This document shows, one piece after another, positions 3,438-16,028 of a DNA stretch of 18,326 nucleotides. How positions within the stretch are numbered: position 1 is the stretch's first letter; every line of letters starts with the position of its first letter. The DNA comes from a bacterium. GTDB lineage: Bacteria; Patescibacteriota; Saccharimonadia; Saccharimonadales; Saccharimonadaceae. Both the position numbers and the translations under genes were made by a program. The stretch lies in assembly GCA_030428585.1 (NCBI GenBank), contig JAUIDL010000008.1, forward strand, positions 1 through 18,326. Reading direction: 5' to 3'. The notes beneath the pieces are model-generated. The model made no database searches. It had not been told where the DNA came from and saw nothing but the letters and a program-made list of their open reading frames with translations.

Positions 3438-4334
3438 ATGATTACCGTTTTGGCCGGAGAAAATAGTTTTGCGTTGCAACAGACACTCAGTGAACTGGTG
3501 GGGGCGTTTGACGGGCCGGTTGAACGGGTTGATGGCGCTAACCTCGAAGCTCATCGGCTGGCCGATTTGTTTACGGGCGTGTCACTCTTTGCACCGCGAC
3601 AATTGGTGGTGATCCAGGATTTATCCCAAAACGCGGAACTGTGGTCGCAGTTGCCATCGTGGCTTGAACGGACAGGTGAGGATGCGTCAATTGTGCTCAT
3701 TGAGCCGACATTGGACAAGCGAACGACCGTCTATAAAACCTTACAAAAAGCCGCAACGATTCAAACGCACCCGATGTGGACCGAAAAAGACCGTCCGACA
3801 GCAGTCGCGTGGGTGATAGACCAGGCAAAGCAAGCCGATGTCGCACTTGACCGAACGTTAGCAACCCGTGTGGTGGAACGGGCTGGTCTCGACCAATGGG
3901 CATTAGCGCAGGCGGTCGAAAAACTGGCACTGCTAGACGACATCACGCTTGAAACGATTGATGATACTATCGATGGCGACGAAATCGCCAACGTGTTCCA
4001 ACTGCTGGACCTGGCACTCGATGGCAACCGAAAGAAGGTTAGCGACATGTTGAGCGTCCTCGAGCTGCAAGAAGATCCGTATCGTCTGTTCGGGTTGTTG
4101 TCAGGTCAGGTGATGCAGTTAGCGGCTGTTGCGACGGCGAAATCTGACGACACGCCAGCCAAGGATTTTGCGATTCCACCATTTGTTGTCTCGCGCCTAC
4201 AGCGACATGCCAAGAAACTCGGTCGCTCGGGAGTTGCTGGGGTTGTGACGAAATTCGCGGCGGCCGATGCCGATCTAAAATCATCTCGCGGCACACCGTG
4301 GCTCGTCATAGAAAAAACTTTGCTTTCATTATAA
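3438..4334 (+). CDS. holA: DNA polymerase III delta subunit
   Basis: Clamp-loader delta subunit, which opens the beta sliding clamp in the DnaX complex. The 298-aa protein begins MITVLAGENSFAL, the beta strand and loop typical of HolA (usually YLFYGEDxFL). RQLVVIQDL (about 55-63) follows in domain I, and a helical C-terminal collar domain spans about 205-298 (NVFQLLDLAL and the following helices). No Walker motif is present, as expected for delta. Sequence conservation in this family is low, so the call rests on length, the N-terminal pattern and the NVFQLLDLALDG-type segment. It is the last gene of the plus-strand replication/repair run, with a strong hairpin straight after its stop. Confidence 0.88.
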   Translation: MITVLAGENSFALQQTLSELVGAFDGPVERVDGANLEAHRLADLFTGVSLFAPRQLVVIQDLSQNAELWSQLPSWLERTGEDASIVLIEPTLDKRTTVYKTLQKAATIQTHPMWTEKDRPTAVAWVIDQAKQADVALDRTLATRVVERAGLDQWALAQAVEKLALLDDITLETIDDTIDGDEIANVFQLLDLALDGNRKKVSDMLSVLELQEDPYRLFGLLSGQVMQLAAVATAKSDDTPAKDFAIPPFVVSRLQRHAKKLGRSGVAGVVTKFAAADADLKSSRGTPWLVIEKTLLSL

Positions 4335-4362
4335 AACCCCGCCGAGATAGCGGGGTTTTGTG
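4333..4362. terminator. Bidirectional intrinsic terminator between holA and rpsT
   Basis: Perfect 10-bp inverted repeat: AAAACCCCGC (4333-4342) and GCGGGGTTTT (4350-4359) with a 7-nt loop. It has a T-run on the plus strand and the mirrored A-run gives one on the minus strand. It starts within the holA stop codon and lies 16 nt beyond the rpsT stop on the other strand, so it can serve both convergent genes. Confidence 0.9.
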
Positions 4363-4377
4363 ATTAGCTTAGCAGAC

Positions 4378-4755
4378 TTATTTCTTAGCAGCAGGTTTTT
4401 TGGCTGGAGCTTTTTTAGCAGCAGGTTTTTTGGCAGCGGCTGGTTTCGCAGTAGTAGTCTTTGGCTTCGCAGCGGTTGCTTTAGGAGCGGCCTTCTTTGC
4501 AGGCGCTAGTTTGACGCTAGCGTCTTTGGCAACCTTAGCAAGGTGAGCCTTGCGGCGGGCAGCGGTGTTTTTGTTCAACAAGTTTTTCTTGACGGCGGTG
4601 TCGATTTCGCTCTGGGCTTTCGCAAGCGTCGCCGCAGTTGGCTTCGCGATAAATGCTTTGGTCGCTTCTTTGACATCGCGCTTAATACCGACATTGCGGT
4701 CACGACGTTTAACGGTTTGTTTTGCGCGCTTGATAGCGGATTTGATGATTGGCAT
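4378..4755 (-). CDS. rpsT: 30S ribosomal protein S20 with a long Lys/Ala/Pro tail
   Basis: Ribosomal protein S20, binding 16S rRNA early in 30S assembly. Residues 1-85 match the family: MPIIKSAIKRAKQTVKRRDRN at the start and the helical segment NKNTAARRKAHLAK near residues 61-74. The protein is 125 aa instead of about 87. Residues from about 85 are a low-complexity tail of AKKA, AAKP and PAKK units resembling histone H1 or bacterial DNA/RNA-binding tails. The ATG is preceded by AAAGGA at normal spacing, a clear SD, in contrast to the leaderless-looking genes in this window. Monocistronic: own promoter upstream and terminator downstream. Confidence 0.96.
   Translation of the reverse strand: MPIIKSAIKRAKQTVKRRDRNVGIKRDVKEATKAFIAKPTAATLAKAQSEIDTAVKKNLLNKNTAARRKAHLAKVAKDASVKLAPAKKAAPKATAAKPKTTTAKPAAAKKPAAKKAPAKKPAAKK
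4385..4434. repeat. Tandem coding repeat in the S20 tail
   Basis: A 20-nt unit, TTAGCAGCAGGTTTTTTGGC, occurs at 4385-4404 and 4415-4434, a 30-nt period. It encodes part of the Ala/Lys/Pro tail of S20 in frame, so it is a coding microrepeat that could expand or contract in steps of whole codons. It is not a mobile or CRISPR element. Confidence 0.8.
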
Positions 4756-4799
4756 GAAGTTCCTTTACCTCTTTAACTGCTGTATCTAGTCAAAGGGTG

Positions 4800-4828
4800 A
4801 TTATAGAGGAAAACCCGATAAAAGTAAA
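4800..4828 (-). promoter_or_regulatory. Promoter of rpsT
   Basis: On the minus strand, -35 TTTACT (4828-4823), a 17-nt spacer and a perfect -10 TATAAT (4805-4800). The inferred start near 4793 gives a leader of about 38 nt carrying the SD. Confidence 0.8.
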
Positions 4829-4855
4829 GGGGTGGAGCAAACCCGGCCCAGGTAA

Positions 4856-4884
4856 TTGCCACAAGCGGGATGTCGGTATATAAT
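4856..4884 (+). promoter_or_regulatory. Promoter of the pilin-propeller gene, leaderless type
   Basis: -35 TTGCCA (4856-4861), 17-nt spacer, perfect -10 TATAAT (4879-4884). Only 7 nt separate the -10 from the ATG at 4892, so transcription should start at about the A of the start codon. No SD is present. Confidence 0.78.
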
Positions 4885-4891
4885 TTAACCC

Positions 4892-6439
4892 ATGAATCGG
4901 GTCAAGCAGCTGCAGCATGCTTTAAAAACGGATGAAACCGCTGGTTTTACTATCGTCGAACTCGCTGTAGTGATTGTAGTTATTGCTATTCTGGCTGCAC
5001 TGACGATTGTTGGCTATAACGGTATTACCATTCGAGCGAACGAGGCGAGTGCACAGCTAGACGCGCGACAGGTTGCGCAAACTCTGACGACACGAAAAGA
5101 CACCGACGGCTTTTTCCCAGCAAACTGTGTTGATACAGACATCCAAGTCAGTGCCGAGAATACCCTCGACTGTAATATTGCTGCTGATGGCAATAATTTT
5201 TGTGTTCAGATTTCGAACGGATCAATTTCGTATTATGCCACCAACGAAGACGCATCTCCAGTATCCGGTACCTGTAGTGGCATAATAGGCATCGCGCCTG
5301 GGGGAGATGTCACCGATGTCGACGCGGCCATTAACCATACCTGTGCTATTGCTGGGGGCAGAGCTTACTGTTGGGGCAATGGTGCTTCGGGAGAACTTGG
5401 CACTGGCTCAACATTAACAAGAGTGACACCAACAGCCGTCGATACATCCGGCGTTCTATCAGGAAAAACAATGAAATCGATCTCAACAGGCTGGTCGAAT
5501 ACATGCGCCGTTTCGACCGATAATAATATTTACTGTTGGGGATACGGACCAAATGGGTTGTTGGGTAATAATGGAACTGCTTCTAGTTCTATACCAGTTG
5601 CTGTCGACATGACCGCCTTTGGCGGGCGAGAGATCGACGATGTACAGGTTGCGACATGGGATGTCTGTGCGCTGGCCGAAGGTGATGTCTTTTGCTGGGG
5701 CCAGAACTCAAACTTCGGTATTGCCTCGCCACCATCACAATCATTGGTGCCAATCAAGGTCAGTGATTCAGGTGATATGGCCGGTAAAGTTGTCACACAG
5801 ATTGCCATGGACGGCTACTGGGGGCCAAACTGTTGGTTAACGACCGAAAATCAGATGTACTGCTTTGGCTATAACGGAACCGGTGGCGTTGGTAATGGAA
5901 CCACGACGTCGCCAGTATGGACACCACAGGCGGTTGATCAAACTGGCGTGCTTGCGGGCAAGACTATTACTGATATGAGTACGTATGAATATGCCACCTG
6001 TGCAGTGGCGAGCGGAGAGGCCTTTTGTTGGGGTGGAAACGGTAATGGACAGATTGGTGACGGGACCACTGTCGACAAGCTGTACCCAACCGCCACAGAT
6101 ACCTCCGGCGTCCTGAACGGAAAAACGGTGACCAGAATCGTGTCCGGTGACTACCACACCTGTGCGATTGCTGATGAAGAATTGTACTGTTGGGGTGATA
6201 ACGCCTGGGGACAACTCGGTAACAACTCGACGACCGATGTGTATTCTCCAATCAAAATAAATACTCCAGGTAATCTGGCAAACATTACTGTCGATGATAT
6301 CGCCACAGGATACGGCCACCTTTGTGCTATTGGTCAAGGTCTCCTTTATTGCTGGGGATCGAACAGCATCGGACAGATAGGCAATGGGTCTGCTGCTGAT
6401 GCGCGTGAGCCTGTCCTGATTTCCATGCCAAGCTCGTAG
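4892..6439 (+). CDS. Type IV pilin-like protein with seven-bladed RCC1-like propeller
   Basis: A 515-aa surface protein. Residues 1-18 are a prepilin leader ending in Gly18; GFTIVELAVVIVVIAILAAL (18-37) is the class III/N-methylation motif with Glu23 at +5, so prepilin peptidase should cut before Phe19 and the helix should assemble into a pilus or stay membrane-anchored. Residues about 40-130 resemble a short globular pilin part with four cysteines (79, 94, 104, 128). From about 140 come seven RCC1-type repeats of 54-56 residues. Each has a Cys pair 9-10 apart around the segment C-A-x(6-7)-[YF]-C-[WF]-G (Cys 151/160, 205/215, 259/268, 314/324, 370/379, 424/433, 478/487), and most continue into N-x2-G-x-[LIV]-G. 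Seven units fit a closed beta-propeller. A minor pilin carrying an adhesive tip domain is the best reading (inference); the ligand is unknown. Monocistronic with its own promoter. Confidence 0.88.
   Translation: MNRVKQLQHALKTDETAGFTIVELAVVIVVIAILAALTIVGYNGITIRANEASAQLDARQVAQTLTTRKDTDGFFPANCVDTDIQVSAENTLDCNIAADGNNFCVQISNGSISYYATNEDASPVSGTCSGIIGIAPGGDVTDVDAAINHTCAIAGGRAYCWGNGASGELGTGSTLTRVTPTAVDTSGVLSGKTMKSISTGWSNTCAVSTDNNIYCWGYGPNGLLGNNGTASSSIPVAVDMTAFGGREIDDVQVATWDVCALAEGDVFCWGQNSNFGIASPPSQSLVPIKVSDSGDMAGKVVTQIAMDGYWGPNCWLTTENQMYCFGYNGTGGVGNGTTTSPVWTPQAVDQTGVLAGKTITDMSTYEYATCAVASGEAFCWGGNGNGQIGDGTTVDKLYPTATDTSGVLNGKTVTRIVSGDYHTCAIADEELYCWGDNAWGQLGNNSTTDVYSPIKINTPGNLANITVDDIATGYGHLCAIGQGLLYCWGSNSIGQIGNGSAADAREPVLISMPSS
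5300..6420 (+). repeat. Seven RCC1-like coding repeats
   Basis: Seven divergent in-frame units of about 162 nt, each encoding a Cys-x8-9-Cys-Trp/Phe-Gly core. Six of the seven have CWG and the fourth has CFG. Several linkers share a segment like DTSGVLSGKT (about residues 184-193, 350-358 and 403-412). Divergence at the DNA level suggests an old duplication rather than a recent expansion. Confidence 0.85.
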
Positions 6440-6448
6440 ACACTTTTG

Positions 6449-6517
6449 TTGACGTTATCAAAAAGGTTATGGTATAGTTAAGCCAAACCATCCAAAAATA
6501 AAAAAACCACCCAAAAA
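6449..6517 (+). promoter_or_regulatory. Promoter and SD-less A/C-rich leader of the DHH-like gene
   Basis: -35 TTGACG (6449-6454), 18-nt spacer, -10 TATAGT (6473-6478), inferred start near 6485. The leader from there to the ATG at 6518 contains only A, C and a few T; it has no G and so no SD, and it cannot form G-C pairs. Initiation probably relies on an unstructured leader. Confidence 0.7.
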
Positions 6518-8281
6518 ATGGACGATATCAAAGCCAAACAACAGATTATCGACAAGATAAAAGACGCCACCAACATCTTGGTGACGGTTTCTGATAATCC
6601 AACGGTTGACGCCCTCTCGGCGGCGATTGGGTTGACGTTGTTAATCGACAAAATGGACAAGCATAGCACCGCTATCTTTAGTGGCGTTGTCCCTCCGGCG
6701 ATTGCTTTTTTGGAACCAGAAAAGATTTTGGATGACACGACTGACAGCTTACGCGATTTTATTATCGCGCTCGACAAGGAAAAAGCCGACCACCTGCGCT
6801 ATAAGCTAGAGGGTGATTCGGTCAAAATCTTTATTACTCCGTATAAAACCGCCATTAGCAGTGACGACCTGCAGTTTAGCCAAGGCGATTACAATGTTGA
6901 ATTGGTCATTGCGCTCGGCGTCGATAATCAAGATCACCTCGATAAAGCACTCGAGGCACACGGCAAGATCTTGCATGACGCTACCGTCGCGACGATTACC
7001 GCAGGCACTGATACGAGTGACCTTGGCGGTATTGATTGGCATGATGATAAAGCCAGTAGCCTCAGTGAAATGGCGACCGGTATTGCCGAGGCGATGAAAG
7101 GGGAGAAGGGGAAATCACTCCTCGACTCACAAATTGCGACCGCTTTACTCACTGGTATCGTTGCGCAAACCGAACGCTTTAGTAACCGCAATACTAGTCC
7201 AAAATCCATGACCGCTGCCTCGAATCTGATGGCGGCTGGAGCCGACCAACAACTGATTGCTTCAAAGCTCGAAGGCAGTTACGACTCTTCTCAGGTGAAT
7301 GAGCTCGACCAGCCGACACAGGAAGATTCCAAAGTGCTCGATGACGGCACGCTCAAAATCAATAACGATTCACGCAGTTCTGATACATTCAAGCCAAGTT
7401 CAGACCAATCGTTACAGGATAGTCTCAACGCTGAACATCCTGTCGAAACCTTAGAAGAGATGGACCGTCGAGTAAAGCAGGCTGAACAAGCCGAAGCCGC
7501 TGACGCGGCTGAATCAGCACTGGACCAAGTCGCAACTCCGCCGCAACCTGAAGCACCAGCTGTTCCACTACCGGAACCAACGCCAATCGTGACTGAACCA
7601 GTTATTGAACCAGCGCAACCCGAGCAGCCTTTAACATTGCCCTCGATGAACCCTGATATTCAACCAGGTAACTCAACAATGGATGCTGTACCTGAGCCAA
7701 CCTTGGGGGGAACGCTGAACGCTACCACCGAACAGGCGGCTGAGGATGCTCGCCGCGAAGCACTTGCTTCACAAAATCACACAATTCTCAGTCATGCCTA
7801 TATGCAAGGTGGCGAACAGTCGCCAAACGATATGCTGATGGCACCGAACGAAGGTGGTAATGACGCAGGAGGCTACATTCTAACAGGTGAGGGTGGACCA
7901 CATTTGCAGCCACCAGAACCAGCACCAAATCCATTAGCACCACCGCCAGCCAATGATTTTGGCTTGCCAATGCCTCCACCAGTACCAGACTTTTCTCAGG
8001 CGCAACCTGGGCTCGAGCCACCGCTGCCCGTTGCACCGCAAGCGACTGGACCGTATGCGCCCCTTGGTCCACAACCAGAACGTCTCGGCGACATTTTAGA
8101 AGAGCCAGCCGTACCGTCGGCACCAGCGCCGCAAGAAGCTAGCGAATTCAATCCATTTGATGCACCGGCTCCAGCAGCCGCCCCAGCTCCGCAACCATTA
8201 CCACCAGAACAGCAGCAACCAACTGGTCCGTATGCGCCACCACCTGCGGAACCAGGTCAGTTCAAGATTCCAGGCCAATAA
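6518..8281 (+). CDS. Degenerate DHH-family-like protein with Pro-rich C-terminal tail
   Basis: A 587-aa protein without signal peptide or TM segment. Residues 10-60 resemble the start of DHH/NrnA-type phosphoesterases. ILVTVSDNPTVDALSAAIGL (20-39) aligns with the motif HxxPDGDAIGSALGL, but the metal-binding His is Ser25 and the first Asp is Thr29; only Asp31 is kept. Where a DHH triplet is expected (about residues 160-175, TAGTDTSDLGG) none is present. Residues about 225-255 (SNRNTSPKSMTAASNLMAAG) look like the DHHA1-side helix of NrnA. Catalysis is thus unlikely; nucleotide binding or a scaffolding role is possible. From about residue 325 to the end the chain is low-complexity, rich in Pro, Ala, Glu and Gln, with a TGPYAP element twice (about residues 511 and 566). 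The next gene, truB, begins 31 nt on, probably from its own promoter. Confidence 0.7.
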   Translation: MDDIKAKQQIIDKIKDATNILVTVSDNPTVDALSAAIGLTLLIDKMDKHSTAIFSGVVPPAIAFLEPEKILDDTTDSLRDFIIALDKEKADHLRYKLEGDSVKIFITPYKTAISSDDLQFSQGDYNVELVIALGVDNQDHLDKALEAHGKILHDATVATITAGTDTSDLGGIDWHDDKASSLSEMATGIAEAMKGEKGKSLLDSQIATALLTGIVAQTERFSNRNTSPKSMTAASNLMAAGADQQLIASKLEGSYDSSQVNELDQPTQEDSKVLDDGTLKINNDSRSSDTFKPSSDQSLQDSLNAEHPVETLEEMDRRVKQAEQAEAADAAESALDQVATPPQPEAPAVPLPEPTPIVTEPVIEPAQPEQPLTLPSMNPDIQPGNSTMDAVPEPTLGGTLNATTEQAAEDARREALASQNHTILSHAYMQGGEQSPNDMLMAPNEGGNDAGGYILTGEGGPHLQPPEPAPNPLAPPPANDFGLPMPPPVPDFSQAQPGLEPPLPVAPQATGPYAPLGPQPERLGDILEEPAVPSAPAPQEASEFNPFDAPAPAAAPAPQPLPPEQQQPTGPYAPPPAEPGQFKIPGQ

Positions 8282-8305
8282 CACAGCGCCAAACTACGCT
8301 ATACT
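8278..8305 (+). promoter_or_regulatory. Probable leaderless promoter of truB
   Basis: -10 TATACT (8300-8305) lies 7 nt before the truB ATG. A moderate -35, ATAACA (8278-8283), sits 16 nt upstream and overlaps the stop of the preceding gene. No SD precedes the ATG, so initiation on a leaderless mRNA fits. Confidence 0.6.
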
Positions 8306-8312
8306 GTCTTCT

Positions 8313-8972
8313 ATGAACGAAGACAGTATTATTTTGGTTGATAAACCAGCCGGCATGACTAGTTTTGGTGTGGTTGCTCGCATCAGACGTCGTCTGAGCC
8401 AACAGTTGGGTAAGAAAGCCAAAGTAGGCCACACGGGCACGCTCGACCCGTTTGCGACCGGTCTGATGATGATTGTGACAGGCAAGGAATGCCGCAACGC
8501 GATGCAGTACAGCAAGCTCGACAAAGTTTACGAAGCGACAATCGAACTAGGTAAGACGAGCTCGACCGGTGATCCAGAGGGTGAGCTGAGCGATGTGTCG
8601 GCCAATCAGCCGACTCAAGAGCAACTCCAGACTGTTCTCGATGGATTTATCGGTGAGATTCAGCAACGGCCGCCAGCTTTTAGCGCTATCAAGGTAAACG
8701 GCCAGCGCGCTTACAAACTCGCCCGGGCAGGACAAACGGTGGAGATACCACTGCGAACCATTACGATTCATTCACTTGAACTGATTGATTATTCGTACCC
8801 CGATGTCCGCATTCGCGTCCATGTTAGTAGCGGGACATATATTCGAACTTTAGCTGAAGATATTGGCGCGAAGCTCGAAACCGGCGCGTACTGTCGTGAA
8901 CTGCGTCGGACAAAAGTGGGGCAGTGGAACGTCGAAGACGCGACGGTCACGCCACTTGAACTGACTGACTAA
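8313..8972 (+). CDS. truB: tRNA pseudouridine(55) synthase, PUA-less
   Basis: TruB isomerises uridine 55 in the T-arm of tRNAs. The 219-aa product has the family motifs: ILVDKPAGMTSF (7-18), KVGHTGTLDPFATGL (37-51, catalytic Asp in TLDP), KVYEATIELG (71-80), QRPPAFSAIKVNGQRAYKLA (118-137) and SSGTYIRTLAEDIG (170-183). It ends soon after the catalytic domain, about 90 residues shorter than E. coli TruB, so the C-terminal RNA-binding PUA-like domain is absent. The open frame extends upstream into the previous gene, but ATG 8313 gives the conserved N-terminus. Its stop (TAA 8970-8972) shares bases with the stop of the convergent gene. Confidence 0.96.
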   Translation: MNEDSIILVDKPAGMTSFGVVARIRRRLSQQLGKKAKVGHTGTLDPFATGLMMIVTGKECRNAMQYSKLDKVYEATIELGKTSSTGDPEGELSDVSANQPTQEQLQTVLDGFIGEIQQRPPAFSAIKVNGQRAYKLARAGQTVEIPLRTITIHSLELIDYSYPDVRIRVHVSSGTYIRTLAEDIGAKLETGAYCRELRRTKVGQWNVEDATVTPLELTD

Positions 8973-11731
8973 GACGGCTGTGAGCGGTCTTTTGGTGGAA
9001 CCGGCTGCTTGCCAAGCATGTCAGAGAGACGAACATCGATAGCTCGAGCAGGCGCGAGGCGGTCTGACATGCTCGCTGCTAATGTATCGTCGTGCAAAGC
9101 AATTTGCATTGCTTCGTGGAGTTTTTCCAATGTCTTTAGGTCGTCGGTATTTGTTGGCGTCATCTTGCTCAGCTTGATGATATCGTCAATCGAGTTCCCG
9201 AAGGCTTCAAATGCACCAGCTTTAACACTACCCATGCTATCGGCAGGAGTATTGCTAAAGCTTTCGATTTTACCTCGAGCAAGATCTCGGTCGTAAATTT
9301 CTTTCGTCTTTTTAGCATTTTCTCCATACCGTGCAGGATCTTTCTTGGCCATTTGTAGATACTTCTGTAAGCTTAGGTCTGGATTTGCCTGCCAGTGGAA
9401 ACCACCCTTCGCCTTCATTGTATTAACATTGCGTGAAACAACACGGTCAACGATTGATTGGTCAATGTGCATACTACCGCGACCAAACTCAATTGAGTTG
9501 ACCTGACCATCTTGCGCCAGTAATTCCATCGCTGCTTCGACTTGATCCTGTGTGAGAGAGTTTCGCTCTGCTGCCTTGTCACTGTTAGCGAGTGCAAGCA
9601 GTTTCTTGGCAAAGTCTACTGTTTGCTCGCCCCGCGCAGTTGCCTGGTCGCCAATCAAGCTAATGTTGTTCTCTAATGCCTCTTTATTCAAACGTGTCAG
9701 GGTAGCGGCAGCCGATGCTTGGGCGCGGGTAATACCAATCTGACCCTGGACACCACCAGCAGTGCGCAGTAAGGCTTGGCTCGCGATGTATTCGGCGCGG
9801 TTACTGCCGTCTTCTTTGAGCTCAACATTAAATGCTTCGGCAATTTTCTTCTGTAACTCGCCATCGGCGGCTTGGCCACGGCGGTCTTGGGCGGCTTTTT
9901 GTTGTGCCAAGCGCTGAGCTTGAGCGGCCAAGGCACTGATCTCGACATTGCCACGCATGCCAACCGGGACGTTACCAGACTTCATTTCACTTAATGCGTT
10001 ATCCAGATTGAGTTTGGCGTTCGCTTCATCTTCGGTCATTGCTTCGGCGCGACGGGCATGGGCAAAGCGATCGGGGTTCGCCGTAACTCGTTGGTGTAGA
10101 TCCCGCTCGAGCCGTTTCTCGGCAATCGTGTGGTCGGTATTAACGTCATGGGCACGGTCATGGGCACGACGTGCTTGAGGAGTGGCGAGGTAGCGTGCTT
10201 CATTAGCCTTTTCAGCGTTGTCAGTCCGTTGCTTGACGTATTTGTTACCTGTGTCAAACCGCTGGCCAATACGACGGAATGGGTTAAGGCGCGCGGCACC
10301 TTTCGTCTTTTCCAGCGATTCCATGCGGCGCATCTTGGCACGATCGTTTGCCCAGTGTTTGCTGCGATCCAATACGCCTTTGCGAGGGTCGTTGAGTAGT
10401 CCTGCGATACGCCCCAAGATACCACCACTCAACTTCAAAATTAAGGGAGTGATAACCAGTGGTGCGATCTGTACCGCCATACCAAACAGCATCATGACAA
10501 TGTTATTTGCGTTTTGGATGATGATACCTCCAGCCAGTTGCGACCCTCCAAACACCAAGGCGAAGGCAGGGAAGAAGATTAGCATGTTCATAAACAGGTC
10601 ACGCCATTTATCAAACCACTTTTCGGTATTTGGCAGCAGATTTGCGACAAACGCCAGCGGTGAGATGACAATCAGGATAACGATAATCGCTTGACGAGCC
10701 GCCAAGATGAGCAGAACGAAGATAACGGTCAAGACCAGGCCAATCAACAGAGGAACGAGCATGTAGAGCGCCACGCCCAGGTCACCGACTGTCGCGACAC
10801 TTCCGGCGATGACTCCAGCAGTCACTGCGCCACCAGACAGAATCAGCCCGGTAATGTTCGACCAGGTTGTCGTGTCATCGGTCCAGGTTTCTCCAGTGAT
10901 TGCGAACGTATCTTGTCGGATGCGGATTAATATTTCTTGCAGTGAGAATCCGGCAATGTTCGACAGGTCAACTGCGATTGCCGTGATGTAAAACGAAAGG
11001 TTGACCAGGATTGCGGTGATAAAGAGTCGTGGCAGTAGCTTTTTGATGCCGTAGTTGTTGATACCGATACCGGTCACCTGCGAGTAGATGATAATCAGTG
11101 CCATGATAATAAACGCCACGTTGGCGATATTGAGCATGACTGACCATGAAACATAGAGGGGGCTAGAGGTGTCATTAACGGGAATTGGTTGGACAGCGAC
11201 AAACCCAGCAATCATGATGAATAGGCTATCCATTGCGTCCGCCAAGAAGACGGTGATAGGACAAACGAACCAGCCGATACCTTCAACTGAACACGATGAA
11301 TAGGAGCTTTCGGCTCCTTGTATAGTGACGGTTATCGACTGACTGTTTTGTGGATTCGAAAAGACATCGTCGTCCGAGTAGTCGTACTCGACGTAGGTTG
11401 CGGTCGTCTCTGTTGGAGGACTGGTACCAGGGGCAAAATAAATGACGTAGGCTTTTCGTGCTCCGGTGTTCTGGTCGATGACTTCGGTCGAGATGTAGAC
11501 TTGACTGCCAACAGGCAGACCGTGACTGTCGCCCTCGACGGCTTGGCCGAGAGGGAAGTACTGACGCGTATCGTAGATGATGCTTTCGCCCTTCCAGCTG
11601 GCGTCGGCTGCGTTGGCCGGTGTACTAGCGATTGTTGCCCACAGCAAGACTGTCGAAATAACAGCCAGGACAAAAATAAGAATGCTTCGTACGGAGTACC
11701 CTCCGAGCGAAGTGGACCACACGCGTTCCAT
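8969..11731 (-). CDS. VirB6/TrbL-like polytopic membrane protein with long cytoplasmic domain
   Basis: A 920-aa protein. Residues 15-41 form a signal peptide-like helix ending in TPANA, with likely cleavage near 41. Residues about 42-150 are a polar, probably external domain. Then come about seven or eight TM helices (roughly 153-182, 197-220, 233-258, 295-345 as two, 347-366, 380-400, 405-435). The segment ARQAIIVILIVISPLAFVAN followed by LPNTEKWFDKWRDLF (345-380) is the pattern of the VirB6/TrbL channel subunit of type IV secretion systems. From about 445 to the end is a charged, helical, Ala/Arg/Lys/Glu/Gln-rich cytoplasmic domain of about 475 residues. Role inferred: inner-membrane component of a T4SS-like or CPR-specific apparatus. 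No VirB4 or other partner is in the window. The ATG at 11731 has no SD and is 9 nt from a -10 box. Confidence 0.75.
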   Translation of the reverse strand: MERVWSTSLGGYSVRSILIFVLAVISTVLLWATIASTPANAADASWKGESIIYDTRQYFPLGQAVEGDSHGLPVGSQVYISTEVIDQNTGARKAYVIYFAPGTSPPTETTATYVEYDYSDDDVFSNPQNSQSITVTIQGAESSYSSCSVEGIGWFVCPITVFLADAMDSLFIMIAGFVAVQPIPVNDTSSPLYVSWSVMLNIANVAFIIMALIIIYSQVTGIGINNYGIKKLLPRLFITAILVNLSFYITAIAVDLSNIAGFSLQEILIRIRQDTFAITGETWTDDTTTWSNITGLILSGGAVTAGVIAGSVATVGDLGVALYMLVPLLIGLVLTVIFVLLILAARQAIIVILIVISPLAFVANLLPNTEKWFDKWRDLFMNMLIFFPAFALVFGGSQLAGGIIIQNANNIVMMLFGMAVQIAPLVITPLILKLSGGILGRIAGLLNDPRKGVLDRSKHWANDRAKMRRMESLEKTKGAARLNPFRRIGQRFDTGNKYVKQRTDNAEKANEARYLATPQARRAHDRAHDVNTDHTIAEKRLERDLHQRVTANPDRFAHARRAEAMTEDEANAKLNLDNALSEMKSGNVPVGMRGNVEISALAAQAQRLAQQKAAQDRRGQAADGELQKKIAEAFNVELKEDGSNRAEYIASQALLRTAGGVQGQIGITRAQASAAATLTRLNKEALENNISLIGDQATARGEQTVDFAKKLLALANSDKAAERNSLTQDQVEAAMELLAQDGQVNSIEFGRGSMHIDQSIVDRVVSRNVNTMKAKGGFHWQANPDLSLQKYLQMAKKDPARYGENAKKTKEIYDRDLARGKIESFSNTPADSMGSVKAGAFEAFGNSIDDIIKLSKMTPTNTDDLKTLEKLHEAMQIALHDDTLAASMSDRLAPARAIDVRLSDMLGKQPVPPKDRSQPS
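8971..8993 (+). terminator. truB terminator embedded in the opposing gene
   Basis: AGACGGCT (8972-8979), loop GTG, AGCGGTCT (8983-8990), one G-G mismatch, followed by TTT (T-run 8990-8993). An extra A-T pair closes the base. It lies inside the last codons of the minus-strand membrane protein gene, so coding and termination signals overlap. The T-run is short, so efficiency is uncertain. Confidence 0.55.
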
Positions 11732-11740
11732 ATCCCTATT

Positions 11741-11769
11741 ATCATAGCATTTAACAGATTAAAAGTCAA
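11741..11769 (-). promoter_or_regulatory. Promoter of the VirB6-like gene
   Basis: Minus strand: -35 TTGACT (11769-11764), 17-nt spacer, -10 TATGAT (11746-11741), then 9 nt to the ATG. Inferred start near 11734 leaves a leader of 2-3 nt, so the message is almost leaderless. It is divergent from the rpsO promoter. Confidence 0.75.
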
Positions 11770-11827
11770 TAAAATGGTCTGTTTAGTTTTTTAAAAAAAT
11801 GCTATCGAGAAGACTCGACTTTAACCC

Positions 11828-11856
11828 TTGAAACATGGGGAAAACTCTGCTACAAT
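11828..11856 (+). promoter_or_regulatory. Promoter of rpsO
   Basis: -35 TTGAAA (11828-11833), 17-nt spacer, -10 TACAAT (11851-11856), 9 nt to the ATG. The predicted transcript has a leader of about 3 nt and no SD, unusual for a ribosomal protein gene. Confidence 0.78.
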
Positions 11857-11865
11857 ACACATTCG

Positions 11866-12132
11866 ATGATTACAACAGAAAACAAGGCGAAGGCCATCAG
11901 CCTGACCCAGACTCACAAGAACGACGTCGGTAGCCCACAAGCCCAAGCGTCTGTTTTGACGTCTCGTATCAAAGAGATCACCGAGCATCTCAAGACGAAC
12001 AAACAAGACCACATGGCTCGCCGTGGACTGATCCAAATGGTATCAAAGCGCAAAAAGCTTCTGAAATACCTCGAAGCCAAAGACTTCGAAGCCTACAAGG
12101 CCACTGTCGCAAAACTCGGACTCCGCAAATAA
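11866..12132 (+). CDS. rpsO: 30S ribosomal protein S15
   Basis: S15 binds the central domain of 16S rRNA and forms an intersubunit bridge. The 88-aa protein is full family length: MITTENKAKAISLTQTHKND at the start, then GSPQAQASVLTSRI (22-35), the HLKTNKQDHMARRGL region (41-55, with His and Arg residues that contact rRNA) and the basic end KRKKLLKYL. The gene precedes pnp as in most bacteria, but a hairpin overlapping its last codons separates the two transcripts. Confidence 0.98.
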   Translation: MITTENKAKAISLTQTHKNDVGSPQAQASVLTSRIKEITEHLKTNKQDHMARRGLIQMVSKRKKLLKYLEAKDFEAYKATVAKLGLRK

Positions 12133-12150
12133 CAGCGGGGTTCTTTTTTT
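12118..12150 (+). terminator. Intrinsic terminator overlapping the rpsO stop
   Basis: ACTCCGC (12120-12126) pairs with GCGGGGT (12135-12141) around an 8-nt loop that contains the rpsO stop codon; two outer pairs (12118-12119 with 12142-12143, one of them G-U) extend the stem. TTCTTTTTTT follows. The left arm is coding. Confidence 0.85.
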
Positions 12151-12151
12151 G

Positions 12152-12304
12152 TTGAAAATTCTGCCGTCCTCATCTGTTATAATAAGAACAGCCCACCGCG
12201 CGTGATAAGTGCTGGATACCGCGACTCATAACCACAATCAAGAGTCTCGATACCCGTTACTTACCTCGCCACAAGATAACAAGGTGAGCAGAACAAGGAG
12301 GCCT
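12152..12304 (+). promoter_or_regulatory. pnp promoter and long leader
   Basis: TTGAAA (12152-12157) followed by either TGTTAT (12175-12180, 17-nt spacer) or the better TATAAT (12178-12183, 20-nt spacer). The transcript would have a leader of about 115 nt. Near its end CTCGCC (12265-12270) can pair with GGTGAG (12283-12288), and CCTC (12264-12267) is also complementary to GAGG of the SD (AAGGAGG, 12295-12301), so two alternative folds are possible. pnp leaders are targets of autoregulation in E. coli; here this is only a suggestion. Confidence 0.5.
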
Positions 12305-14428
12305 ATGGGAGTCATTAACCCCTATGGAAAAGAGATTATTAAGGTCACGACCGAATTTGAAGGTCGGCCCCTGACTCTCGAAGTAAACCGCGTTGGATTT
12401 CGTACCACCGCCAGTGTATTAGTCACGTACGGCGACACCGTCGTTTTGGGAACCGCTATGGTTGGTTCTCGTCCGGTTGTGCTGGATTATTTCCCGCTCT
12501 CAATCGACTATGAAGAAAAATTTTATGCAGCTGGAAAGATCAGTGGCAGCCGCTTTATCAAGCGTGAGGGTCGCCCAAGCGACGAAGCGATTCTGATCGG
12601 GCGTCTGATTGACCGTCCAATTCGCCCACTGTTTCCAAAGGGCTACCGCCAAGAGGTGCAGGTGGTTTCAAGCGTCCTCAGTATGGACCCAACCTTCCGC
12701 CCTGACGCAGTTGCGATGATTGCTGCCTCAGCTGCCTTGACGCTGACCGGCACGCCATTCGATGGTCCGGTTGCAGGTCTGCGCATTGGTCGCGTCAACG
12801 GCGAATTCAAAGCCTTCCTCAGTCCTGAAGAGCGTGAAACCAGTGACCTGGATTTGGTCGTGGCTGGTATCGAGCGCGGTATTACCATGGTCGAAGCTGG
12901 TGCTGAACAAGTACCCGAAGAGGTCATCGCCGACGCACTCGCGTGGGCATTCGAACACTACCAACCAGCCATCGCCTTGCAACGCGAATTGGCCGAGAAA
13001 ATCAAACCAGAAGCTCAAGAATACAGCCTAGTTCTACCAAACGAAGATTTCCAAAAAGAAGTTGACGCATGGGTCGAGGGTAAGCTTGGCGAAGGCCTTC
13101 GCAAGCCATACCCAGAGCGCAACGAGCTAATCAACCAACTCCGCTGGGACTTCCACGAAGCAATGACCGAAAAAGTCGGCGAAGAAGAATATCCTGCCCT
13201 GCGTGATGAATATGACGAAGCCTTTACCAGCGCCGTTCACAAAGACGTCCGTAAGGGTATCATCGAAGACAAAATCCGCCCAGATGGCCGCGCTTTTGAC
13301 GAAATCCGTCCACTATCGAGCGAAGTCGGTGTCTTGCCACGAACACACGGATCAGCCATCTTTACCCGTGGAGTAACCCAAGGTCTCAACATCGTTACCT
13401 TAGCACCACTCAGCTACGCTCAGTTGGTCGACACCATGGAAGTCAACGACGGTGAACGGCGCTACATGCACCACTACAATGCGCCGGGATATACTGTTGG
13501 TGAAGTCCGCCGTCTCGGCAGCCCTGGTCGCCGCGAGATTGGTCACGGCTACTTGGCTGAACGCGCCTTAATCCCTGTCATGCCGACGGAAGAAGAATTC
13601 CCATACGCCGTCCGTAGCGTCACCGAAATCATGAGCCAAAACGGTTCAACCTCGATGGCAGCGACCTGTTCCAGTTGTCTGGCCTTGATGGACGCCGGTG
13701 TGCCAATCAAGAGTCCGGTCAGCGGTATCGCCATGGGTCTGATTATGGACGGCGACACACCGCACATTCTGTCTGACATCGCCGATGCCGAAGACTTTGC
13801 TGGCGATATGGACTTCAAGTCCGCTGGTACCGCCAACGGTATCACGGCGCTCCAGATGGACATGAAGGTCCACGGTTTGCCAGTTGAAATCCTCCGTGAA
13901 GCCTTGTTGACCGCCAAAGAAGGTCGAGCGCACATTTTGCAGCACATGGTCGCGACGATTGCTGCGCCACGCGTCAGTCTTAGTCCATTCGCCCCACGCA
14001 TCGAGAAGATCAAGATCAATCCAGACAAGATTGGTGCAGTCATCGGTAAGGGCGGGGAAGTCATTAACAAGATTACCGCTGAAACCGGTGCTGAAATCGA
14101 CATTAAAGAAGACGGCTTGATTACCGTTGCCGCCGCTGACACTGCCAACATCGAAAAGGCATTGGCCTGGATCAAGAGCCTAACCGAAGAACCAGAAGTC
14201 GGCCGTATTTACGAAGGTACTGTCGTCAGCATCAAGGAATTCGGCGCATTCGTGAACATCTTGCCGGGCACTGATGGCATGGTCCACATTTCACAGCTCG
14301 ACGACAAGCGCGTCGAAAAAGTTGAGGATGTCCTACACGAAGGTCAAGTCGTCAAGGTCAAGCTGACCGGCATCGACGAGCGCGGACGGTTGAGCCTGAG
14401 TCTCAAGGACGCGAAAAAGGAAGCATAG
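12305..14428 (+). CDS. pnp: Polyribonucleotide nucleotidyltransferase (PNPase)
   Basis: Phosphorolytic 3'-5' exoribonuclease of mRNA decay, acting as a trimer. The 707-aa chain shows two RNase PH domains (about 10-150 and 325-555) joined by a helical domain, KH at about 566-628 (GxxG loop GKGG at 581-584) and S1 at about 630-702 ([20 protein letters not shown]). In the second PH domain [20 protein letters not shown] precedes [10 protein letters not shown], whose Asp497, Asp503 and Lys505 match E. coli D486, D492 and K494. The start is the ATG at 12305 right after AAGGAGG, only 3 nt from it, which is closer than ideal; an earlier GTG at 12209 would add 32 unrelated residues. No terminator is obvious between its stop and the next promoter. 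Confidence 0.98.
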
Positions 14429-14507: not shown

Positions 14508-14544
14508 GAGGAAAGCGAGATAATCTCTCGCTCCTTGTTTTTTT
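14508..14544 (+). terminator. Terminator-like hairpin in the leader of the 478-aa gene
   Basis: AGCGAGA (14514-14520), loop TAATC, TCTCGCT (14526-14532). Across a 2-nt bulge, GAGG (14508-14511) can pair with CCTT (14533-14536). One G and then seven T follow (14538-14544). It stands between the promoter and the SD of the gene, so it is either an attenuator, the 3' end of a transcript of about 65 nt, or the pnp terminator placed downstream of the next promoter. Confidence 0.7.
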
Positions 14545-14591
14545 GTCATCCAAACTCTAGCAAGACAACATGGAAGAAGGAGGTGGGCTGT

Positions 14592-16028
14592 ATGCCCGCA
14601 ACTGGAACGGAAGCGCGAGTCACGACTTTCGAAGAGGCGTGCGCGACTTTGGGCCTGATGCCCGGTGAGTCGTATTCGACCACGGCGGTTCGTCAAGCAG
14701 AGACGCTTAAGCGGCTGCCGCTCGAGCTGGTTATTGCGACGCTCAGTCGGGACACCGATCGGTACCTGGATCTTCTCAAGGTCCACGACCAGCTCGCCGC
14801 GGTCCACCAGGCTCGTGAACTGTTGCTCGACGGTTATCCCGAGAGTTTCCAGAACGGCACGATTGATGAAATCGTGGTGGAGGACGAGACGATCGAACGA
14901 GACGGCGTGACGATGACCGCCAGCTACTACTGGTCGTTCAGTCGACTGGTGGTGACTGCCGAGATTCACGACGTTGACGTGCCCAAGTTGACGGCGTTGC
15001 CGCTGACTCAGTATGGCTATGCCAGTGTGGTTCGCATTCTGTCGGAAGGCGAGTCGGTGCAGACACACCATGTCGTGACCTTCTCTCAGTTCAAGGAGAT
15101 GTGGGAGGCACGCCAACGAGACAAGGCGCGTCGAGACGCTCGAGAGCTGCTTCAGCAGCGTATCAACGCGGCTCGACAGACCATTGCGAGTCTCAAGCGT
15201 GAAGGACTGCCAACCAAGCACCTGACCGATATGTTGACGAAGGCTGAACGACTGAGCTATGGCAACTATCGTCGTAACTGGTCGTCTCAGTCCTGCGATG
15301 ATGCCCTGAAGGGTGTCGAACGGGCCATCGAAGCGGTTCGCCAGAACCCGATCGACAGCCTGGTCGACGCATTGATGCGTGGTGACGCTCATCAGATCCA
15401 GCAGTCCAACTACCAGACGATTCAGACGATCAACACCTGGTCTATCATGACCGGGGGCTGGCTCAAGGCAAACCCTTGGGTCCAGTACATCGACGAGGAG
15501 CGCCTGCGTGCGTTCTACCGAAAGCGGATCGAGCAGACGAACATCACCTCGCTCGAGCGGGCGCTGTTGCACCCCGGTGAGTTCCTGCTGGCACTCGAGG
15601 ACTACTTCGTCGAAGAAATGATTGTCGAGGCTGGGAGGAACGAGGAGTTCGACATCGCTCAGCCGGTCATCGTCCTTCACGGCAACAAGGGTTACCAGGA
15701 ATACCCGATGGATTTCGTCCTCACCGACGACGGTCCCGAGTGCCAGTTGACCATTCCGCTGTCGGTCTACGACAAGAACCCGTACGAGTACGGCAAGAAC
15801 GAGCCGTACTTCTGGCAGCCGCATGGCATCGCTTGGCATTTGTTCCTGACGGTTCAGGGTCGAGTGGTCTGTCATGGACGACTCGACGTCATCGATACCA
15901 AGGTCAAGAAGTACAAGCGCAGCGTTCAGCGCAGCAAGAATGCGTCGAAGGTCGACGAGAACGGATTGACCCGCTTCGGCCCCAACCTCGGCACCACCCC
16001 GCCTCCGTGGCACGTCCGCGGTCGCTAG
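14592..16028 (+). CDS. Unrecognised 478-aa soluble protein
   Basis: I do not recognise this protein. No signal peptide or TM segment is visible, so it is probably cytoplasmic. Residues 10-85 look helical (TTFEEACATLGL, then LPLELVIATL and a helix to LLLDGYPE). Residues 90-160 look like a beta-rich part (IDEIVVEDETIE, MTASYYWSFSRLVVTAEI), 165-260 is charged and helical with coiled-coil character (WEARQRDKARRDARELLQQR), 295-345 is helical, and 355-440 is beta-rich and aromatic (PYFWQPHGIAWHLFL). The C-terminus is basic. No catalytic motif stands out. ATG 14592 is preceded by GAAGGAGGTG, a near-perfect SD; an in-frame start at 14535 lies in the T-run of the leader hairpin and is rejected. Lys, Gln and Glu are mostly AAG, CAG and GAG, unlike the flanking genes. 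A 12-bp terminator follows. Possibly lineage-specific or acquired. Confidence 0.8.
   Translation: MPATGTEARVTTFEEACATLGLMPGESYSTTAVRQAETLKRLPLELVIATLSRDTDRYLDLLKVHDQLAAVHQARELLLDGYPESFQNGTIDEIVVEDETIERDGVTMTASYYWSFSRLVVTAEIHDVDVPKLTALPLTQYGYASVVRILSEGESVQTHHVVTFSQFKEMWEARQRDKARRDARELLQQRINAARQTIASLKREGLPTKHLTDMLTKAERLSYGNYRRNWSSQSCDDALKGVERAIEAVRQNPIDSLVDALMRGDAHQIQQSNYQTIQTINTWSIMTGGWLKANPWVQYIDEERLRAFYRKRIEQTNITSLERALLHPGEFLLALEDYFVEEMIVEAGRNEEFDIAQPVIVLHGNKGYQEYPMDFVLTDDGPECQLTIPLSVYDKNPYEYGKNEPYFWQPHGIAWHLFLTVQGRVVCHGRLDVIDTKVKKYKRSVQRSKNASKVDENGLTRFGPNLGTTPPPWHVRGR

Follow-up and report, generated by a model that had tools for sequence, protein, structure and literature searches.

A modular type IV prepilin with a predicted RCC1-type propeller among the head-bearing pilins of a Saccharimonadaceae genome

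The stretch of DNA analysed here (the window; 18,326 nucleotides of contig JAUIDL010000008.1, GenBank assembly GCA_030428585.1) comes from a genome of 0.70 Mb in 87 contigs, 87.49% complete, of the family Saccharimonadaceae. On its forward strand, an open reading frame (ORF) at 4892..6439 (start ATG, stop TAG, stop included) encodes a protein of 515 residues, which domain matches and structure prediction identify as a modular type IV prepilin with an RCC1-type propeller. An initial annotation, made from the letters alone, had read the gene in this way and had placed the organism in the Saccharibacteria; the latter agrees with the window's polynucleotide phosphorylase, which is 84-89% identical to proteins labelled Candidatus Saccharibacteria, Saccharimonadota, Saccharimonadaceae and Microsaccharimonas (a few named among the 120 listed).

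A class III leader peptide (residues 1-18, 4892..4945), recognised from sequence, NCBIfam and alignment, opens the protein; it reads MNRVKQLQHALKTDETAG and is followed by the predicted PilD cut site after Gly18 and then FTIVELAVVIVVIAILAAL, giving a mature start of FTIVE. The prepilin motif of the initial annotation is borne out: Gly at -1 (residue 18) and Glu at +5 (residue 23) each show conservation of at least 90% when 41 RCC1 pilin homologues are aligned, and the NCBIfam prepilin model TIGR02532 scores 17.8 bits, above its cut-off of 16.3; Pfam N_methyl scores 14.9 bits, below its cut-off of 21.2. This alignment comprises 39 of the 47 listed pilin-motif proteins, the query included, plus P0022 and P0104, which lack the motif by pattern and are treated as pilin homologues; eight longer proteins (571-890 residues) were omitted. 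The leader is followed by the N-terminal pilin helix alpha-1 (residues 19-72, 4946..5107; predicted helical from 21 to 72) and by the predicted pilin beta-sheet part (residues 73-131, 5108..5284), which contains Cys 79, 94, 104 and 128, the last two being Cys in 35/41 and 36/41 alignment rows. Both the long helix and the beta-sheet are present in the model of the pilin module, and when the module alone was compared with known folds, the 22 top entries by Z were type IV pilins or pseudopilins.

Pfam and the predicted structure confirm a second, unrelated domain downstream of this module, namely a seven-bladed RCC1-type propeller (residues 132-515, 5285..6436). Pfam RCC1 (PF00415) matches in seven stretches with 162.4 bits (cut-off 21.7) and an E value of 3.5e-48, so the seven repeats described initially are not due to chance; PF25390 scores 256.9 bits (cut-off 150), and the predicted structure is the closed seven-bladed propeller that the initial annotation had expected. 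All seven blades contain a Cys pair (151/160, 205/215, 259/268, 314/324, 370/379, 424/433 and 478/487; 5342..6352), spaced nine residues apart in five blades and ten in two, as had been noted, although the motif then quoted fails for blade 4 (C-W ... C-F-G). At each of these fourteen positions, 39 or 40 of the 41 rows have Cys, and the two Cys of a blade are predicted to lie on the two strands of one hairpin. VKOR (PF07884) and a DsbA-type Thioredoxin_4 protein (PF13462) are encoded in all five genomes searched, the window's included, and thus the organism is equipped to make disulfides. Because the paired Cys share a hairpin and these enzymes are encoded, one disulfide staple per blade is plausible, and such cross-strand bonds would harden each blade.

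The initial annotation had described the Cys pairs as something that eukaryotic RCC1 lacks. The comparison with eukaryotes holds for UVR8, the only such protein checked, which, unlike the propeller described here, has no Cys pairs where it could be aligned. Among the best 120 of 4634 matches, a list biased towards the query, 116 of the 119 other homologues have at least six Cys pairs, and we therefore rejected the staples as a distinguishing feature. When these homologues are divided by an N-terminal motif pattern, which may miss some pilins, 46 have a pilin motif (45 of them with at least six pairs) and 73 do not (71 with at least six pairs), so that the pairs are ordinary among bacterial homologues. 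The RCC1-repeat homologues with Cys pairs (within P0002-P0120) share repeat, Cys spacing and variable positions with the 4892..6439 protein, and the 73 differ from it in having no pilin motif by pattern. Fewer than six pairs are found in P0065 (two), P0072 (none) and P0105 (none); since P0105 is a pilin-RCC1 homologue, the staples are not obligatory, and this protein of 510 residues is a natural control for what the disulfides do. Five pilin-type homologues of 883-890 residues (P0004, P0015, P0023, P0044 and P0108) have fourteen Cys pairs and probably carry two tandem propellers. A literature search on bacterial RCC1 propellers with disulfides returned nothing relevant by title, and no PilC/PilY1 model, as a PilY1-type beta-propeller might give, was among the six Pfam families matched at E values up to 1. 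To our knowledge, none of the RCC1-like domain proteins UVR8, HERC2, RCC1 and BLIP-II is a pilin.

The ab and cd loops of such propellers lie on one side of the fold, and it is here that the 41 aligned pilins vary most. Mean entropy is 2.44 bits in the ab loops, 1.94 in cd, 1.78 in bc, 1.07 in da and 1.00-2.03 in the strands, with peaks in every blade in the ab loop and at the start of the cd loop. A set of 35 ab/cd-loop positions, five per blade, averages 3.08 bits versus 1.49 for the other 344 propeller positions and includes 21 of the 35 most variable ones; these positions were chosen post hoc, and the random test (0/20000) is therefore not independent. Entropy maxima fall at these same positions in 833 blades from the 73 homologues that have no pilin motif by pattern, which makes the variable face a mark of these RCC1 heads generally.

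The machinery expected for a type IV pilin, PilB, PilC and PilD, which the initial annotation had proposed to look for, is encoded elsewhere in the genome, including the prepilin peptidase on which its reading depended (one Peptidase_A24 match, 42.1 bits, cut-off 26.5). There are four T2SSF matches in two PilC-family genes, and five T2SSE matches, corresponding to five PilB/PilT-type ATPase places. The gene order on contig C3 is pilB-pilT-pilC-pilin-pilD, and contig C82 has a second pilB-pilC pair (names from family matches and order).

The pilin gene stands alone among housekeeping genes. It is flanked on the left by rpsT (ribosomal protein S20, name by eye; 4378..4755, reverse strand) and on the right by a DHH-family gene (6518..8281, forward strand; Pfam DHH 22.0 bits, cut-off 28.1), and in all eight relatives compared these two adjoin each other and nothing matching the 4892..6439 protein intervenes. 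About 140-200 bases separate the match ends in seven relatives, and about 625 in G004. The window's order mutM, holA, rpsT, DHH, truB is kept in seven of the eight; in the eighth, G060, where the contig is short, the search recovered just rpsT and DHH. Comparison by eye with the empty sites of G007 and G041 delimits an inserted single-gene unit at approximately 4828..6445 (forward strand), which carries a promoter-like site and ends just upstream of the promoter-like site of the DHH gene (6449..6478, forward strand), seen by eye in both empty sites as well. The site within the insert, TTGCCA-17-TATAAT (4856..4884, forward strand; 11/12), lies 7 nucleotides before the ATG and, judged from its sequence, may be the gene's own promoter, with an mRNA that is possibly leaderless. 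The promoter scan returned five promoter-like sites compared with 2.5 (standard deviation 1.4) in shuffles; as shuffles alone give 2.5, only the best site carries weight. No direct-repeat pair of the kind left by a transposon was present at the insert ends among the repeats found in 4300-6800, and no transposase adjoining the gene was noticed by eye among the window ORFs. Neither rpsT nor the DHH gene occurred in the stretches compared around twelve further RCC1 pilin loci; one of these, L215, has pnp, and L216 begins at a contig end. Some copies share sites (UvrC-like to aminopeptidase-like in L160, L209 and L214; similar flanks in L213 and L215; names by eye), so part of the RCC1 pilin set has been inherited in place. 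In G060, which belongs to another genus, an RCC1 ORF (L174:4573-5871) lies on the opposite side of rpsT, on a contig that ends just past the matched start.

The distribution of the gene is patchy. Of 392 genomes searched across the class, 32 gave an RCC1 match with an E value no higher than 1e-105, and all 32 belong to the window's family. The initial annotation had suggested looking for the pilin-plus-RCC1 architecture in related genomes, and it is found in at least 19 full-length copies in 16 genomes (profile positions 12 or lower to 490 or higher; a lower bound, as three candidates were scored per genome), two of the copies having an internal stop. Within the genus, the protein itself as query matches 4 of 17 genomes at E up to 1e-40, one of them being its own; identity in the remaining three is 34-43%, and one of these three matches covers the propeller only. 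A profile search adds full-length copies in five further genus genomes (G123, G181, G271, G276 and G393). The genus-mate G007 has module matches only, among the matches listed. In G057, with a genome of 0.9 Mb, an open frame of 6781 residues on contig C2 holds several RCC1 propellers (matches 3718-13047).

The initial view of a single protein made of pilin and propeller stands, but it missed a wider set: the genome encodes many modular pilins, of which this is one. Searching this genome with the whole protein matched eleven other places, eight of which end in or just past the pilin module (query residue 144 or lower), two reaching residues 158 and 174 and one 234. A profile of the module alone finds 18 places at E up to 1e-5, including the gene at 4892..6439, and nine of these carry a complete head, recognised by Pfam or by eye: RCC1 (4892..6439), Fib_succ_major (FISUMP) twice, NHL twice, DUF285, Laminin_G_3, a lectin-like domain, twice, and a stretch judged RTX-like by eye that no Pfam family matches. 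L011, a tenth headed pilin, is truncated by a contig end, and the other eight places are short pilins or unresolved. The same profile finds 13, 22, 18, 21 and 18 places in the relatives G007, G041, G051, G057 and G024, respectively. Longer sibling pilins, examined in four of these five, bear RCC1, NHL, FISUMP, Laminin_G_3, fn3, LRR_5 and FGE-sulfatase-type heads, and in G007 also phage tail Collar and Gp10_C; twelve have no recognised head, and stretches L132 and L149 contain no pilin ORF by motif pattern. The phage-fibre-like head of G007, a member of the same genus, is found on L133:194-2356, in which a prepilin motif by pattern (Pfam N_methyl is not among the matches listed) precedes fn3, three Collar stretches and Gp10_C. 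In the window's own genome (contig C7), two modular pilins are adjacent and divergent, L019:864-1754 on the reverse and L019:1863-2972 on the forward strand, one with the RTX-like repeat stretch (by eye) and the other with Laminin_G_3. A diversity-generating retroelement behind the heads was considered and rejected, as reverse transcriptase PF00078 occurs in one of five genomes (G057), which is not the window's.

Whether modules are shared between heads was assessed on 35 modules from five genomes, omitting plain pilins and the twelve longer ones with no recognised head (head labels by eye for L131, L154, L019:864 and L011, and just below the Pfam cut-off for L157 FGE and L151:3093 FISUMP). 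The clearest case is found in G057, in which the module of the RCC1 pilin L152:4168 is 77% identical to that of the FISUMP pilin L151:4318, compared with 68% and 61% for the modules of the two remaining RCC1 pilins in G057. The likeness stops just after GACAGH-ASG, where unrelated heads begin, and either recombination or gene conversion would explain it. On the module tree, which is weak (16 of 32 inner branches open), the five RCC1 rows need five changes versus a mean of 4.8 with shuffled labels (500/500 as low), and all heads together need 21 (minimum 9) versus 23.5 (12/200 as low); there is some clustering by head, with shuffles as low in 24/500 for FISUMP, 23/500 for NHL and 20/500 for fn3. 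Overall, modules track neither head nor genome in a clear way, mean identity being 38.5% within a genome between different heads (120 pairs) and 39.5% between genomes for the same head (51 pairs). The module of the 4892..6439 protein groups on the tree with that of L009, a FISUMP pilin encoded in the same genome (support 95/59); its nearest modules by identity are an NHL pilin of the same genome (42%), an RCC1 pilin of G057 (41%) and L009 (41%), so that no recent swap is shown for this gene.

The reading of the gene that we favour, with moderate confidence, is that it provides a Saccharibacteria episymbiont with a minor type IV pilin of the modular kind, whose propeller is displayed on the filament and binds the surface of the host or of another cell; the propeller is probably a gripping head for the host. 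PilD would cut off the 18-residue leader, the pilin module would join a type IV pilus via one of the two PilB/PilC machines, the bulky propeller would be displayed on the filament, most likely at its tip, and its one hypervariable face would bind a surface ligand of the host (or of another cell). The gene would be one of a set with different heads on related pilin modules, and turnover of heads and of whole genes between genomes would re-target the pilus.

Adhesion is the leading hypothesis because of published work on PilX2 of TM7x (Nanosynbacter lyticus), a cultured Saccharibacteria episymbiont; by its description PilX2 has the same architecture, being a minor pilin with a hepta-bladed RCC1-repeat propeller and the proposed T4P-2 adhesin (PMC12206443). 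Deletion of pilX2 lowered host binding to 4.6% versus 10.6%, as did deletions of pilA2, pilB2 and pilC2, and that study found no other minor pilin besides PilX2 to be necessary for host binding by T4P-2 (PMC12206443). A bulky module grafted behind a small pilin module and thought to be shown at the tip is likewise known from PilB and PilC of Streptococcus sanguinis; these modules are a vWA domain and a lectin fold, and the domains that the consulted section of that paper names do not include RCC1 (PMC8179133). Modular pilins are widespread, with over 1,200 proteins and 264 architectures (PMC8179133).

Several points weigh against this reading. The pilX2 deletion also altered filament counts and length (PMC12206443), and in our view the binding defect may therefore be indirect. 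PilX2 was predicted to lack a PilD signal, and its gene belongs to a five-pilin cluster (T4P-2, locus three) (PMC12206443); the 4892..6439 protein, by contrast, has a canonical motif, and its gene is solitary, with rpsT and the DHH gene as neighbours in the window. The hypervariable face is also seen in RCC1 homologues without a pilin motif by pattern and is no specific argument for a pilus adhesin. Finally, with a best module identity of 42%, module sharing is shown in a relative and is not shown for this gene.

PilY1, together with minor pilins, is thought to prime or cap the filament, and the propeller could similarly be part of a structural or priming minor pilin that caps the filament or helps to start it without binding a host itself. 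We consider this unlikely, though it is the best of the alternatives: the filament changes on pilX2 deletion favour it, and the authors raise PilY1-like priming (PMC12206443), but a core assembly part is expected to be conserved, and the head is patchy and divergent in the genus (4/17 genomes; full-length in six by profile), while its hypervariable face suggests a binding role. BLIP-II is an RCC1-fold inhibitor that binds a beta-lactamase, and a comparable surface-anchored or shed protein acting outside pili against host surface enzymes is more doubtful still, given the class III leader conserved in the 41 homologues and the pilin fold of the module. Single-gene insertion, patchy spread and the internal stop in 2 of the 19 full-length copies listed could also indicate a recently acquired gene under little selection, from a drifting pool of pilin genes; the chance of this appears slim, as the copy at 4892..6439 is intact, with a near-consensus promoter-like site and all fourteen propeller Cys kept. 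Least probable of all is a DNA-uptake pilus subunit: pilins that carry additional domains, ComZ for example, act in competence (PMC8179133) and three sibling modules touch Pfam ComP_DUS, all below cut-off, but T4P-2 pilin mutants of TM7x were normal in competence (PMC12206443).

Beyond the preferred reading of this gene as a host-binding pilin, we tentatively put forward, as a possibility for the family as a whole, a swappable-head pilus: a pool of pilin cassettes, each a single gene with a promoter of its own, whose modules recombine with unrelated heads (RCC1, NHL, FISUMP, lectin-like, fn3, BspA-type leucine-rich repeat and even phage tail-fibre domains) and whose gain or loss would direct the episymbiont to another host. 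The pilin-RCC1 kind itself is already known (PMC12206443, PMC8179133); less expected are the many heads in a small genome and their gene-by-gene turnover. Full-text searches, which cover few subscription papers, found only PMC12206443 on RCC1 in Saccharibacteria and no paper combining 'modular pilin' with 'Patescibacteria'. An RCC1 head that is one of many and moves singly between genomes provides a testable link between head repertoire and host range in uncultured relatives.

Some further features of the window are of note. The gene at 14535-16028 (forward strand) encodes a 497-residue protein with no Pfam match above cut-off, and that at 8969-11731 (reverse strand) a protein of 920 residues that by eye has membrane-like stretches, reaches no Pfam cut-off (best E 0.53) and is found beside truB in G007 and G041 too. 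The rpsT product (125 residues) has an Ala/Lys/Pro-rich C-terminal tail arising from 15-nucleotide repeats, and in six of the eight relatives the rpsT matches stop at residues 83-92.
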